Positions 11,659 through 56,566 of a DNA stretch of 64,000 bases are shown here, in pieces. Origin of the DNA: Hydrogenothermus marinus (GTDB lineage Bacteria; Aquificota; Aquificia; Aquificales; Hydrogenothermaceae). The first letter of the stretch is position 1, and each line of letters opens with the position of its first letter. The DNA lies in the NCBI RefSeq assembly GCF_003688665.1, contig NZ_REFO01000013.1, positions 1-64,000 of the forward strand. The letters are read 5' to 3'. A program made the position numbers and the translations under genes. Under the pieces are notes generated by a model. That model was not told where the DNA came from. It made no database searches and saw nothing but the letters and a program-made list of their open reading frames with translations.

Positions 11659-13225
11659 ATATTTCACAAATTTTAATACAAAAGATTTTCCTTCTGAAAA
11701 AGTAGATACAATCATTGTTGGAGCAGGTATTGCTGGTCTTTCTGTAGCAAACAAATTAAAAGAATTAGGCTCTAAGTTTATCATTCTTACTAAAAAAAAT
11801 GTTGGTATATCAAACTCTTTTTTAGCTCAAGGTGGGCTTGCAGCAGCAATAGGAAAAGATGATAGCCCTGAACTTCATTTTAAAGATACTATAAATGCAG
11901 GGAAAGGTTTATGTATTGAAAAAAATGTAGAAATATTAGTAGAAGAAGGTCTTGAAAGAGTAGTAGATTTAATAAATAACGGACTTGAATTTGATAAAGA
12001 TGAGAAAGGTTATATAAAATTAACAAGAGAAGCAGCTCATAGCAAAAGAAGGGTATTACATGTAAAAGACAAAACAGGTAAAGAAATAGGTAAATTTTTA
12101 TATAAAAATTTAGATAACAAGTATTTTGAAACAAACTTCTATTTAGAAGAGATATTAACAGAAGATAATAAATTTGTAGGTGTTATTGTAAGCAATAAAA
12201 AAGAAAAAAAAGTAATATATGCTAAATCCTTAGTTATAGCATCTGGTGGTTATAGTCCTCTTTTTAAAAGAAATACTTCTACTTATAACATTGGTGGAGA
12301 TGTAATATTAAAAGCATTTAGAGCAGGTTGTAGATTAAAAGACATTGAATTTATACAATTTCATCCTACTGCATTAAATTTACCACATACTCCAGCTTAT
12401 TTAATAACAGAAGCTATAAGAGGAGAAGGAGCTATTTTAATAGATGAAAAAGGAAATAGATTTACTAATGAGCTTGCTCCAAGAGATGAAGTTGCAAGAG
12501 CTATTTTTGAAAAAGAAAAAGAAGGAAGTAAAGTTTTCTTAAATCTAAAACCTTTAATAGAAAAAGGAATAAATTTAGAAGAAAGATTTCCAACTATATA
12601 CTCTTTATTAAAAGAATACAATCTATTAGATAGCATAGATAAAGTTCCTGTAAGTCCTGCAGCTCACTTTTCAATAGGAGGAATTGAGGCAAACCCTTCT
12701 GGAAAAACAAATGTAGAAGGAATATTTGCAGTTGGAGAAGCAAGTTGCAGTGGTGTTCATGGTGCAAATAGGTTAGCAAGTAATTCTCTTCTTGAATGTA
12801 TAACTTTTGGTAGTAAAACAGCTTATGGGGTTTATTTATATAATATGTATCAAAAAATAAAAGAGATAAATATAAGCAATAAAATAAAATACAAAAAAGA
12901 TTTAACCGATAATAAAAAGGAAGAAATCATATATACTTTAAAAAATTTAATGTGGAATAAAGTAGGATTAATAAGAGATAGAGAATCTTTAAAATTGGCA
13001 TTGAAATCTATTGAAAATCTAATAGAAGATGTTCAAAATCATTTTTCACCAGTATATATATTAGATATTTTATATTTATCAAAAGCAGTTACTTTGTCTG
13101 CTTTAAATAGAGAAGAAAGTAGAGGTGTACATTATAGACAAGACTTTAAATCTCCACGAGAAGAATTTAAAAAGCATAGTATAATTGAAAACAAAAATTT
13201 TGAAATAAAATTGGAGGTAAATTAG
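11651..13225 (+). CDS. nadB: L-aspartate oxidase
   Basis: A 524-residue flavoprotein of the succinate dehydrogenase/L-aspartate oxidase family. The FAD-binding motif is VGAGIAGLSVANKL near residue 20. SFLAQGGLAAAIG and the HSKRRVLH segment identify NadB, and the GIEANPSGKTNVEGIFAVGE motif follows. It oxidises aspartate to iminoaspartate, the first step of NAD synthesis. The last codons contain the Shine-Dalgarno of infC, and the stop lies two bases before the infC start. Confidence 0.95.
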   Translation: MDRYFTNFNTKDFPSEKVDTIIVGAGIAGLSVANKLKELGSKFIILTKKNVGISNSFLAQGGLAAAIGKDDSPELHFKDTINAGKGLCIEKNVEILVEEGLERVVDLINNGLEFDKDEKGYIKLTREAAHSKRRVLHVKDKTGKEIGKFLYKNLDNKYFETNFYLEEILTEDNKFVGVIVSNKKEKKVIYAKSLVIASGGYSPLFKRNTSTYNIGGDVILKAFRAGCRLKDIEFIQFHPTALNLPHTPAYLITEAIRGEGAILIDEKGNRFTNELAPRDEVARAIFEKEKEGSKVFLNLKPLIEKGINLEERFPTIYSLLKEYNLLDSIDKVPVSPAAHFSIGGIEANPSGKTNVEGIFAVGEASCSGVHGANRLASNSLLECITFGSKTAYGVYLYNMYQKIKEINISNKIKYKKDLTDNKKEEIIYTLKNLMWNKVGLIRDRESLKLALKSIENLIEDVQNHFSPVYILDILYLSKAVTLSALNREESRGVHYRQDFKSPREEFKKHSIIENKNFEIKLEVN

Positions 13226-13230
13226 CCATT
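13213..13230 (+). promoter_or_regulatory. Shine-Dalgarno and AUU start codon of infC
   Basis: GGAGGT at 13213-13218 is followed after nine bases by ATT at 13228-13230, which opens the IF3 reading frame (IQELRINRQIKA). No ATG, GTG or TTG occurs in frame between the Shine-Dalgarno and the conserved IF3 N-terminus. An AUU start lets IF3 repress its own mRNA in E. coli, so the same autoregulation is likely here. Confidence 0.85.
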
Positions 13231-13746
13231 CAAGAGTTAAGAATCAACAGACAAATAAAAGCAAGGGAGTGCAGGTTAATAGACGATGAAGGCAAAAACT
13301 TAGGCATTGTACCTATAGAAGAAGCTTTACGTCTTGCTGAAGAAAAGGATTTAGATTTAGTAGAAATCTCCCCTAATGCAAACCCTCCTGTATGTAAAAT
13401 AATGGATTATGGAAAGTATAAATTTCAGCAACAGAAAAAAGAAAAAGAAGCAAAGAAAAAGCAAAGAGCGAATATTCAGCATGTAAAAGAGATAAAATTT
13501 AGACCTAAAATAGAAAAACATGATTATGAAACAAAGGTAAAACATATAAGAGAATTTTTAGAAGATAACAATAAAGTTAAAGTCATAATAATGTTTAGAG
13601 GAAGAGAAAATATTCATCCAGAAATAGGGCAACAACTTGCAGAAAGAATAATAGAAGATGTCAAAGAAGTAGGTAAAGCAGAAAAGCCTCCTAAAAAAGA
13701 AGGAAGAAATATGACATTTACATTAGTACCTAAAAAAGATAAATAA
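13228..13746 (+). CDS. infC: Translation initiation factor IF-3
   Basis: A 172-residue IF3 with both domains. The N-domain begins QELRINRQIKA and has the conserved GKNLGIVPIEEAL and NPPVCKIMDYGK segments. The basic linker KKEKEAKKKQR follows, and the C-domain has EIKFRP and HDYETK. It binds the 30S subunit and rejects non-canonical start codons. The frame opens at ATT (13228) with a well-placed GGAGGT; the first in-frame ATG at 13402 would remove the N-domain. The gene is away from rpmI-rplT, which lie at 39069-39642. Confidence 0.93.
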   Translation: MQELRINRQIKARECRLIDDEGKNLGIVPIEEALRLAEEKDLDLVEISPNANPPVCKIMDYGKYKFQQQKKEKEAKKKQRANIQHVKEIKFRPKIEKHDYETKVKHIREFLEDNNKVKVIIMFRGRENIHPEIGQQLAERIIEDVKEVGKAEKPPKKEGRNMTFTLVPKKDK

Positions 13747-53402: not shown

Positions 53403-54344
53403 TTAAAAATTTTTTAACTTTCTTAAATGTTCTTTGTATGTTTTAGAAAAAATATGTGTTTTACCATCTTTTGAAAAATAATATAAATAATCTGTTTTTG
53501 CTGGATTTATTGCATCATAAAAGCTTTTTTTTGAAAAATTACAAATAGGTGTTGGTGGAAGTCCATAATGTTTATAAGTATTGAACGGTGAATCTATTTT
53601 ATATATCTGTTTTGTAATATTAATATACTCATAACCTTTTAGCTTTAAACCATATATGTTTGAAGCATCTATCTGTATCGGCATTTTCATTTTAAGTCTT
53701 TTGTATATTATTCCTGCTATTATTCTTTTTTCATCTTCTTTAGAAGATTCTTTTTCAATAAGTGAAGCTACAATCATATATTTGTAAAATTTTTCATCAT
53801 TAATATTAAATTCTTTGTATTCTTTTTTAAATCTATTGAAAAACATATTAAAAATTTCTTCTACATCAGAAATCTTAGAAATATAATAAGTATCTGGATA
53901 AATATATCCTTCAAATGAAGGTTTATCTATCCCTATACTTTTTAAAAAATCTTTATCAAAAGCATATTTTAAAAAAGTATCTTTTTTTATTATTCCTTTA
54001 TTTTCTAATTTTTTTGCAATATCAAATAAATTATTTCCTGCATTTATTGTAATTTTTACTAATTTCTCTTTTCCTTTATACAAAACATACCAAACATCAG
54101 AGATAGAGTAATCTCCTTTAAATTCATAATAGCCTGCTTTTAAAGGTTTATTTCTAATTTTAGAATATATTAAAAATAAAATTTTTGAAGAAATTATATC
54201 TTTATTTTTTAGATTGTCTGCAATTTTAAATAAATTATCACCTTTTTTTATTAATATTGTAGAATTTACTGGCTTTTTTATATGGAAAATATAAAAAAAA
54301 GCAGGAATTGTTAATATAATTAAGAAAATTAAAAATCTTTTCAT
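53403..54344 (-). CDS. mltG: Endolytic murein transglycosylase MltG
   Basis: A 313-residue YceG-like protein with an N-terminal membrane anchor (FLIFLIILTIPAFFYIFHI) and a LysM-like region. The catalytic domain includes GYIYPDTYYI and the likely catalytic glutamate E197 in ASLIEKES, followed by IIYKRLKMKMPIQIDAS. It cuts nascent glycan strands at the cytoplasmic membrane. The ATG overlaps the ruvX stop (ATGA). mltG next to ruvX is a common arrangement. Confidence 0.93.
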   Translation of the reverse strand: MKRFLIFLIILTIPAFFYIFHIKKPVNSTILIKKGDNLFKIADNLKNKDIISSKILFLIYSKIRNKPLKAGYYEFKGDYSISDVWYVLYKGKEKLVKITINAGNNLFDIAKKLENKGIIKKDTFLKYAFDKDFLKSIGIDKPSFEGYIYPDTYYISKISDVEEIFNMFFNRFKKEYKEFNINDEKFYKYMIVASLIEKESSKEDEKRIIAGIIYKRLKMKMPIQIDASNIYGLKLKGYEYINITKQIYKIDSPFNTYKHYGLPPTPICNFSKKSFYDAINPAKTDYLYYFSKDGKTHIFSKTYKEHLRKLKNF

Positions 54345-54760
54345 AATGGATTTTTAGACAAATAACTTTCTAAAATCACAACTGCAGAAACACTATCTAA
54401 TTTTTTCTTCATTTTTTTCTTGTTTTTAACTGCTAAGGATAATCTTTCTTCAGCTATTGAAGTTGTAAATCTTTCATCTTCAAAAACTATATCTATATCT
54501 GGTATTTTCTCTTTTAATTTTTCTGCAAATGCTTTTGTTTTTTTCGCTTGCTCTCCTTCTTCTCCTTTTAAAGTAAGAGGAAGTCCTATAATTATTTTTT
54601 TAGGTTTATACTGATTTATATATTCTTTAATTTTTTCAAAAGCTTTTTCATTATTTTGAATAATACCAAGAGGCGTTCCTGAAAAACCAAAAGGGTCGCT
54701 TACTGCAACCCCAATTCTTTTATCTCCAACATCAAGAGCTAAAATTCTATCTTTAATTAT
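54341..54760 (-). CDS. ruvX: Putative Holliday junction resolvase / pre-16S rRNA nuclease RuvX (YqgF)
   Basis: About 139 residues with the YqgF layout: ILALDVGDKRIGVAVSD at the start (catalytic aspartate and G-x-K/R), IIIGLPLTLKGEEGEQA in the middle, VFEDERFTT, and the DSVSAVVILESYL end. A stop (TGA) lies just four codons above the domain, and no ATG, GTG or TTG is in frame before the essential aspartate. Initiation must be at CTG (54766), ATA (54760) or ATT (54757). I chose ATA, six bases after GAAGG. The 3' end overlaps mltG. Confidence 0.85.
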   Translation of the reverse strand: MIKDRILALDVGDKRIGVAVSDPFGFSGTPLGIIQNNEKAFEKIKEYINQYKPKKIIIGLPLTLKGEEGEQAKKTKAFAEKLKEKIPDIDIVFEDERFTTSIAEERLSLAVKNKKKMKKKLDSVSAVVILESYLSKNPL

Positions 54761-54951
54761 TGACAGCCTTCACCCTCACATTTTGTAGAAATTCCAGCTA
54801 ATTTGTATAAAGGACAAAATGAAATAATAGCAGTCAAAATAAGTATTAAACCTACAAAATAACCAATAACAAAAACACCACCTTTTTCAATACCAAGCCA
54901 AATCAAAATTGCACCTATTAAAACTCTTATTACTGCGTCCCAAAATGCTAT
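54757..54951 (-). CDS. DUF2892 small membrane protein
   Basis: A 64-residue protein with two membrane helices (AVIRVLIGAILIWLGI and GYFVGLILILTAIISFC). The end CPLYKLAGISTKCEGEGC matches the YgaP-like DUF2892 family, which often ends in cysteine-rich CPLY-x-GxxT. The only candidates for initiation are CTG (54954) or ATA (54951), because TAG lies directly upstream. AGGAGG at 54960-54965 sits seven to eight bases before ATA, which favours ATA. Its stop codon overlaps the ruvX start region. Confidence 0.75.
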   Translation of the reverse strand: MAFWDAVIRVLIGAILIWLGIEKGGVFVIGYFVGLILILTAIISFCPLYKLAGISTKCEGEGCQ

Positions 54952-54989
54952 CAGCTAACCCTCCTAAAATTTTTTAAATTAAAATATCA

Positions 54990-55702
54990 TTATAAGTTGG
55001 CATTTTCAACAACTTTTTTAAGTTCATCTAATGATGACACTTCATAAAATTCATGAGCATGTAGTTTTTGAGCTAATTCTTTTCCCTTTTCATCTAAGTT
55101 TAACAGGACATCAAGAATTTTACTTCTTAATTCTTTTTCATTAGGATCAATCATAAATAGATGGGAAAATCTTTGAAAATTGCTTCTGTAAAATTCTTCA
55201 ACATCTACTTTTGAAGAAAAAGATAAATTATCGTAAAAACCAGCATGCACAAATCCTATATCTACTTCTCCTTTTACAACAGAATTTATTACAGTTTGCC
55301 AAGAATTTTTGTAAACTATTTCAAAATCATTTATTCCTTTTTCTTTAAAGGTTTTTAAGCCTAAAAAAGTGGTAAATTGACCTTTTACTGTAGCAATTTT
55401 TCCCCTGATATATCTTTTATTTTTTCTCCTTTTCTTGATATAAATATAACTTCATCATATTTGTCATCACCTGCTACTGGAATAAATTCTCTTTCTCTTT
55501 CTAATTTTAATGAATCTAGTGGATTTGCATATGCAAACTGAATTTTTGGGAACAGTTGGTAAAAACACTCAAAATCCAGACATATAGAAGGTGAGAAATG
55601 AGCTCGTGTTTTTTTAGATAGGTATATAAAGAATTCTATCCAATCTGGAAGTATTTTAGGATTTAAATCATGTGGGCAGATGCCTACATTAATATTTTTC
55701 AT
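54990..55702 (-). pseudogene. PhnD-like substrate-binding protein, frameshifted
   Basis: From the ATG at 55702 a frame runs to 55385 (IGxCPHDLNPK-like start VGICPHDLNPK, FAYANPLDSLKL, VAGDDKYDEVIFISRKG), typical of PhnD-family binding proteins. The rest, in another frame from about 55396 to 54990 (IATVKGQFTTFLGLKTF, EVDIGFVHAGFYDNL, then a helical end), completes the same domain. Adding one A in the short A tract at 55397-55401 joins them into about 237 residues. No signal peptide is present, so it may be a cytoplasmic or sensory relative. It is broken by a one-base deletion or a sequencing error. Confidence 0.72.
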
Positions 55703-55771: not shown

Positions 55772-56566
55772 AAGGTGTTCTAAAAATATAGAGTCAGATG
55801 TAAAATAAAGATAAAAACTAAAAGTAGGAGGGAATAAAAATAAGAAGAACTAGATTGAAATTCAAAAAAATAATTAAAATAACTAAATCAATACTAAGAG
55901 AAAAAAGCAAAAAAGAGAAAAAAGGGAAAGGAAGACCAAAAGAATATCCAGACTATTTAATTATATCAATATTTCTATACCAAATTCTAAAAGGATATTC
56001 ATATAGAGAAGTATTAGAAGAAACAAAAGATATAATATAAAAATTACCATCATTATCTGTATATCATTATAGGGTAAAGACTTTGCCAAAAAGTTTATTA
56101 CAAAAAATAATACACAAAACAGCAATAATCATAAAAAAAAAGATAAAGAAAAAAGTCTCTTATCTTATAGCAGATGGAACAGGTTTTAGTTTTGATGATA
56201 TATACCCTAATTAAAGTTTATTCCTTTATAGCAGACAAAGGATTTGATAATGGAAGATATAGCAAAATCAGGAATAGAATTAGATATTAGAGTAAAAGAA
56301 ACATTTAGGATAAATGTAAAACATCCATTAAGGAAAAAATCAAAAGAAGGCTGGAATAATTTTGGTAGGTATAGATATTTAATAGAGAGTTTATTTGGTA
56401 ATATAAAACAGAAATTAGGATCCCACTTTAGTGTAAAAAATCAAGAAATAGCTAAGAAAATGGGTTTAGCTGTTTTTGCCATTTATAATATGTATCTTTT
56501 AGTTATTTTTTTCTTTCTTATTACTACCTTATTTTTATTTTTGATTGCTTAATTTTAGAACATCTT
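55772..56566 (+). mobile_element. Decayed insertion sequence with terminal inverted repeats
   Basis: Nearly matching ends AAGGTGTTCTAAAAAT (55772-55787) and, reversed, AAGATGTTCTAAAATT (56551-56566) agree at 14 of 16 positions and bracket about 795 bases of transposase remains. No target duplication is evident. The right end lies ten bases before the -35 box of the tRNA-Lys promoter. The transposase has several frame breaks, so the element cannot move by itself. Confidence 0.75.
55840..56552 (+). pseudogene. Transposase remnant (DDE type, IS5-like)
   Basis: Three pieces of one transposase are visible. The N-terminal part (KGRPKEYPDYLIISIFLYQILKG) ends in a stop at 56038-56040. A middle part (KKVSYLIADGTGFSFDD) holds the first catalytic aspartate. 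Then comes ADKGFDN in one frame and, in another, IAKSGIELDIRVKETF with RYLIESLFGNIKQKLG, which holds the likely catalytic glutamate. An AGGAGGG is followed by ATA (55840) where the original ATG may have been. Stops, frameshifts and probably a deletion inactivate it. Confidence 0.8.

Follow-up and report, generated by a model that had tools for sequence, protein, structure and literature searches.

How translation begins on two adjacent genes that lack any standard start codon is the question raised by contig 13 of Hydrogenothermus marinus, a hot-vent bacterium of the family Hydrogenothermaceae (genome of 1.6 Mb, 99.95% complete, 18 contigs). Both genes lie in the window, the 64,000-nucleotide stretch of this contig that was analysed, where DUF2892, ruvX and mltG follow one another in that order on the minus strand as one operon. 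The ruvX gene is essential in E. coli and is tied to the maturation of 16S rRNA. The DUF2892 gene runs from 54954 to 54757 and the ruvX reading frame from 54769 to 54341, with the following features at the locus.

54960..54965, minus strand: Shine-Dalgarno sequence AGGAGG of DUF2892, read from the sequence, 5 nt from CTG and 8 nt from ATA
54952..54954, minus strand: CTG, candidate DUF2892 start, aligned with the first ATG in L017 and L008 (ATG ATA GGA TTT TGG) and in L005
54949..54951, minus strand: ATA, the other candidate DUF2892 start, aligned with ATG in L002, L003, L004 and L006 (e.g. ATG GCA TTA TGG)
54757..54954, minus strand: DUF2892 (YgaP-like transmembrane protein), 65 codons, TAA at 54759-54757; PF11127, E 2e-12; intact, under purifying selection
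54774..54777, minus strand: GAGG, likely Shine-Dalgarno sequence of ruvX, 7 nt from CTG; GAGG or GGAG lies 6-7 nt before CTG in 6/6 genus genomes
54764..54766, minus strand: CTG, likeliest ruvX start, within the 3′ end of DUF2892 (10 nt overlap, CTGTCAATAA); kept in 6/6 genus genomes
54758..54760, minus strand: ATA in the DUF2892 stop overlap (ATAA), second-choice ruvX start; ATA at the same overlap in g5 (L043, L045, L046) and g10 (L019), ATG or TTG in most others
54341..54766, minus strand: ruvX (yqgF) coding region counted from CTG; PF03652, E 2e-41, TIGR00250; its TGA overlaps the next ATG (ATGA)
53403..54344, minus strand: mltG (YceG-like), the next gene of the operon; PF02618, E 2e-71; standard ATG overlapping the ruvX stop

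The DUF2892 frame opens after an in-frame TAG (54957-54955) with CTG ATA GCA TTT TGG, and its first ATG, GTG or TTG is a TTG 16 codons in, within the first membrane helix; the ruvX frame opens after a TGA (54772-54770) with AGG CTG TCA ATA ATT AAA GAT AGA and has its first standard start at codon 120 of 142. The claim of the initial annotation that neither gene has an ATG, GTG or TTG between its upstream in-frame stop and its conserved domain is confirmed. The same annotation placed an ATA 6-7 bases from a Shine-Dalgarno sequence at both genes, which is correct for ruvX (GAAGG to ATA, 6 nt) but not for DUF2892 (AGGAGG to ATA, 8 nt), and of the two other options that it listed CTG stands, whereas at DUF2892 the nearby ATT is not in frame. 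Both genes are under purifying selection, with dN of 0.13-0.23 and dS of 0.76-2.0 against five relatives, and pseudogene status was rejected for both on the grounds of intact reading frames and low dN/dS. The DNA directly upstream of DUF2892 carries a broken binding-protein-like gene, present as two overlapping ORFs, and transposase-like pieces (window 54990-55702, minus strand, and 55855-56552, plus strand); in relatives the site holds a coiled-coil gene or leuC, which points to a rearrangement breakpoint in the window genome.

In none of the six genus genomes does an ATG, GTG or TTG precede the ruvX domain, and all six carry a CTG there: the codons read AGG CTG TCA ATA ATT AAA GAT in the window genome, AAC CTG CCA GAG CTA AAA GAT in L003, AAT CTG CCA GAG CTA AAA GAT in L004, AGC CTG CAG TTA AAA GAT in L005, AGC CTG CCA GAG CTA AAA GAT in L006 and AAA CTG GCA ACA ATA AAA GAC in L002. 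CTG is the sole near-cognate codon common to the six starts, with GAGG (GGAG in L002) 6-7 nt upstream. An in-frame ATA near the ruvX start is found, among these six, only in the window genome and in one relative, where its context differs. Given the agreement of six genomes, including metagenome-assembled genomes from different projects, a sequencing error at ruvX was rejected.

In five of the six genomes the CTG lies within the end of DUF2892, where its C closes one codon and its TG opens a Cys codon. The codon that supplies the C is GGC, ACC, ATC, GCC or GCC, encoding G, T, I, A and A, respectively. A third-position C shared by all five is seen in 3 of the 42 columns of both genes that have any such C, the other two being an invariant Asp GAC, although the five overlapping genomes share common ancestry and so are not independent observations. 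Codons ending in C make up 4.5-6.9% of the synonyms for those amino acids in the window genome, where CTG is 0.12% of all codons, and synonymous sites elsewhere are near saturation (dS about 0.8-1.5 in the four comparisons of the window genome with overlapping relatives). Because the third-position C has been kept despite the amino-acid changes, the rarity of C-ending codons and near-saturated synonymous sites, selection for CTG is the simplest reading. In L002, where DUF2892 ends differently, the CTG comes after the stop of that gene, in non-coding sequence, and a GGAG precedes it by 6 nt. The GAGG of the overlapping genomes is partly set by a Glu codon of DUF2892, but just 16% of Glu codons are GAG, and the spacing of GAGG from the CTG, 7 nt, is the genomic mode (GGAGG-to-start spacing in the window genome peaks at 7-8 and is mostly 4-10). 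From these comparisons CUG is the likeliest start of ruvX and has probably been selected for within the genus. The earlier proposal of AUA initiation is thus well supported as far as a non-canonical start of ruvX is concerned, but the codon conserved in the genus is CTG and not ATA.

The reading that we prefer, at a probability of roughly 0.7, is that ruvX is a working gene read from a CUG that is fixed in the genus and placed by GAGG or GGAG and most likely by reinitiation, and that DUF2892 is read from its adjacent CUG or AUA. Within it we infer the actual initiation codon, the coupling, the low yield and the dependence on IF3. The AGGAGG would load ribosomes on DUF2892, and those ending at its TAA would re-initiate, helped by GAGG, at the CUG that lies 10 nt short of the gene's end. 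Pairing of fMet-tRNA with CUG would involve a first-position mismatch of the kind normally penalised by IF3; to judge from other genes elsewhere, ruvX output per mRNA would be lower than from an AUG, and so weak a codon would hold RuvX at a lower level than DUF2892. In the window genome ruvX overlaps the DUF2892 stop by 10 nt if counted from CTG and by 4 nt if counted from ATA (ATAA), and in L002 a gap of 12 nt separates stop and start; since the CUG site is at the very end of DUF2892 or just past it, reinitiation after DUF2892 is likely.

The start of DUF2892 is a different case. All 28 further loci of the family, those of the five genus relatives among them, have an ATG or GTG, which has been lost in the window genome alone. 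Conservation of upstream codons in relatives, which had been put forward as the means of telling a used codon from a recent mutation or error, therefore speaks against DUF2892, which has a standard start in every other locus, and not against ruvX, which has none in the genus. The start region, CTGATAGCA, has CTG and ATA side by side, and its codons CTG ATA GCA TTT TGG can be derived either from ATG GCA TTT TGG, which would make ATA the start, or from ATG ATA GGA TTT TGG, which would make it CTG. The ATA that the initial annotation favoured does align with ATG in 4/5 genus relatives, but the CTG 3 bases upstream corresponds to the leading ATG in starts of the Persephonella type (ATG ATA GG.) and in L005 (ATG ATG GGT). 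ATA, at 8 nt, is better spaced from the Shine-Dalgarno sequence than CTG, at 5 nt, with 22 versus 8 genes at these distances in the spacing table, whereas rarity favours CTG (1.0% of trinucleotides, against 4.3% for ATA); a GTAGCTG motif upstream of the L003 DUF2892 start may account for the CTG in the window genome. DUF2892 may thus be read from either codon.

The pattern at DUF2892 is also what would be seen if the missing start were a recent mutation toward gene loss, or a base error in the assembly, leaving ruvX as the only real case. Beyond the standard starts of all the other loci, the rearranged region upstream of the gene, with its broken binding-protein gene and transposase-like pieces, fits this explanation. 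Against it, the DUF2892 frame is intact and under purifying selection, AGGAGG has been kept at a distance from which either CTG or ATA could be used, non-standard codons of this type serve as starts of other genes in this genome, and the assembly is 99.95% complete in 18 contigs; we consider the explanation doubtful, though a serious possibility.

An alternative for ruvX, which we consider unlikely, is that it starts by termination-reinitiation at the AUA (54760-54758) of its overlap with the DUF2892 stop. This ATA is in a legal position, with GAAGG 6 nt upstream, and AUA starts have been proven in S. aureus (PMC13009471). Most other genera have a normal ruvX start at the same junction, ATG or TTG, usually in a four-base stop/start overlap (ATGA, TTGA), and a standard ruvX start is missing from 10 of 33 family loci (six from the genus, three from g5 and one from g10). 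In the three g5 genomes ATA overlaps the TAG of DUF2892 (ATAG) behind a GGAG and with no standard start, so that AUA appears to be the ruvX start in g5, as judged from sequence; the g10 locus (L019) has the same overlapping ATA plus an ATC option behind AAGGAG. Within the genus of the window genome the evidence runs the other way, as the junction codon in the other overlapping members is a poor start, CTA in L003, L004 and L006 and TTA in L005, whereas CTG is kept in 6/6. In addition, ATA is 6% of codons in the window genome, so its occurrence is weak evidence for AUA, and GAAGG pairs with the 5′ part of the Shine-Dalgarno sequence, which makes the effective spacing to ATA short. A tree of four proteins does not unite g1, g5 and g10 in a single clade with good support (support for g1 with g5, 0.126), and a non-standard start of ruvX is therefore likely to have arisen more than once.

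It is very improbable that DUF2892 is instead translated as a 49-residue protein from the in-frame TTG 16 codons downstream: this is a standard start and is preceded at about 5 nt by a weak AGGTG, but its use would cost the protein a large part of its first membrane helix, a feature conserved throughout the family, and would leave the AGGAGG unused. Production of RuvX as a DUF2892-RuvX fusion through frameshifting or stop read-through, an expression route from the upstream frame that had been raised earlier, can be practically discounted: although the two frames overlap by a few codons, and in L002 are single-frame ORFs parted by one TAG, the frame relation is 0 in L002 and shifted in the five others, so that no single recoding event fits all and a shared mechanism of this kind is untenable, the overlap in the window genome (GAA GGC TGT CAA TAA) holds no slippery heptamer, and in outgroups the two genes are separate with ordinary starts.

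Start usage was surveyed in stretches that add up to 728 kb, or 45% of the genome, and contain 714 coding ORFs. By a simple rule 551 of these use ATG, 136 TTG and 26 GTG, and this ordinary usage rules out a genome-wide reassignment of starts. The screen took coding ORFs without a standard start that have a Shine-Dalgarno sequence before a near-cognate codon, and misses genes with a chance ATG, GTG or TTG within 8 codons. It yielded only about seven convincing genes, or about 1%: DUF2892, ruvX, infC (ATT), phoH (ATT), a DUF58-like gene (ATC), pgsA (ATA) and purK (ATA-CTG). Given this small number and the purifying selection on DUF2892 and ruvX, the lack of standard starts in these two neighbours is beyond chance. 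Truncated-looking ORFs without starts were set aside (a nitroreductase fragment at C11:61552-61917, and window 54990-55451). A 401-codon frame at C13:160284-161489 (minus strand, in L115) has no ATG, GTG or TTG in its first 153 codons, and is either a truncated gene or one with a non-standard start. Control stretches gave 0 of 203 genes in a Sulfurihydrogenibium-type genome and 2 weak cases among 177 in an Aquificaceae-type genome, samples too small for claiming a difference.

Altered initiation machinery, either a relaxed initiator tRNA or a changed anti-Shine-Dalgarno sequence, was rejected as well. The anticodon stem of the initiator tRNA (GGGCTCATAACCC) is intact, with the three G-C pairs of tRNA-fMet present, the anti-Shine-Dalgarno sequence (CACCTCCTTT) is likewise intact, and the 3′ end of the 16S rRNA (GGATCACCTCCTTTA) is normal. 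IF3 aligns over its full length with IF3s of solved structure; compared with these sequences its interdomain linker carries two inserted residues (gene at window 13228-13743, plus strand).

Five other genes from the survey could be followed through the family, among them the IF3 gene itself, which lies in the window.

13228..13746, plus strand: infC (IF3), ATT at 13228-13230, GGAGG at 13213-13217; TIGR00168; ATT in 29/30 family loci

The infC frame (window 13204-13746, plus strand) has no ATG, GTG or TTG before the domain in 29/30 family loci. For phoH (L132:8503-9495, minus strand; relatives L210-L239, L306-L309) the codon is ATT or, in two genomes, ATA in all 33 aligned family loci; some have an in-frame TTG or GTG that is mostly part of the Shine-Dalgarno sequence (TTGGAGG), and in a second family of the order four genomes have an ATG near the start. 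The DUF58-like gene (L138:14953-15873, plus strand; relatives L240-L259), whose Pfam match to DUF58 has an E of only 0.006, shows ATC behind a GGAG-type Shine-Dalgarno sequence in 17/20 loci and ATG in two genus members. In purK (L135:3042-4232, plus strand; relatives L260-L274) a CTG is present in the genus, as an ATA CTG pair, and in one g4 genome, and is aligned with the ATG of Sulfurihydrogenibium-type genomes. Finally, pgsA (L131:8798-9352, plus strand; relatives L180-L186) has ATA or ATC in the genus, where one member may use TTG, and ATG, GTG or TTG elsewhere. Non-canonical starts seem unusually frequent in the family.

Starts of this kind are known from other bacteria. In S. aureus infC, ccpN and citZ start at AUA and cvfC1 at AUU, as mapped by Ribo-Ret, and near-cognate starts behind a strong Shine-Dalgarno sequence give about 10% of the yield of AUG, with ccpN reaching up to 30% in rich medium (PMC13009471). 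That set resembles the present locus in its near-cognate starts, strong Shine-Dalgarno sequences, conservation in relatives and escape from ordinary gene finders, and differs in that here the start codons are predicted from sequence and the ruvX CUG sits at a gene overlap. IF3 represses near-cognate starts, and infC starts at AUU, AUC or AUA with autoregulation by IF3 in E. coli and Streptomyces (PMC5472188); the window infC, with its family-wide AUU behind GGAGG, is alike, whereas ruvX and DUF2892 encode no initiation factor and a feedback loop is not implied for them. The GTC start of Streptomyces sigR, also repressed by IF3 (PMC5472188), is like that of ruvX a conserved odd codon in a coupled operon, but the sigR codon starts the upstream gene and determines a protein ratio, whereas ruvX is the downstream gene and has no known partner relation. 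E. coli pcnB, as cited in passages of PMC13009471 and PMC4227106, starts at AUU (Binns and Masters 2002); it too is a gene of RNA metabolism limited by a weak start, but it is a single gene with a different codon. Ribosomes that end one gene can re-initiate at an overlapping start (PMC6728339), a process itself affected by IF3 (PMC2268962), and such pairs share with this locus the stop/start overlap of co-directed genes seen as ATGA or TTGA in most genera; their starts are of the ATG type, in contrast to a CTG 10 nt before the gene end or to ATAA and ATAG. A re-annotation of Aquificales in 2014 allowed ATT and CTG starts (PMC4227106), and passages of its text name none of these genes. Our literature search found no paper describing non-canonical starts of this gene set in these bacteria, and while such starts are already known as a kind, this set appears to be undescribed.

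Bacterial genes known to start at anything but AUG, GUG or UUG are few, and gene finders discard them, so that annotations of these genomes probably have RuvX, PhoH, PgsA and PurK wrong or lack them altogether. A common response of ruvX and DUF2892 to IF3 is plausible, as infC in the same window has a family-wide ATT start. We tentatively extend this to the Hydrogenothermaceae as a whole, in which infC, phoH, the DUF58-like gene, ruvX, purK, pgsA and probably more genes (about 1%) might be permanently read from AUU, AUC, AUA or CUG and form an IF3-linked regulon at the level of translation, tying ribosome maturation (RuvX, PhoH) to initiation capacity; co-regulation with IF3 would follow from infC itself being on AUU. 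With ruvX on a likely CUG across one genus and apparently on AUA in another, together with the further family genes, these bacteria offer a natural set for testing the role of weak starts.
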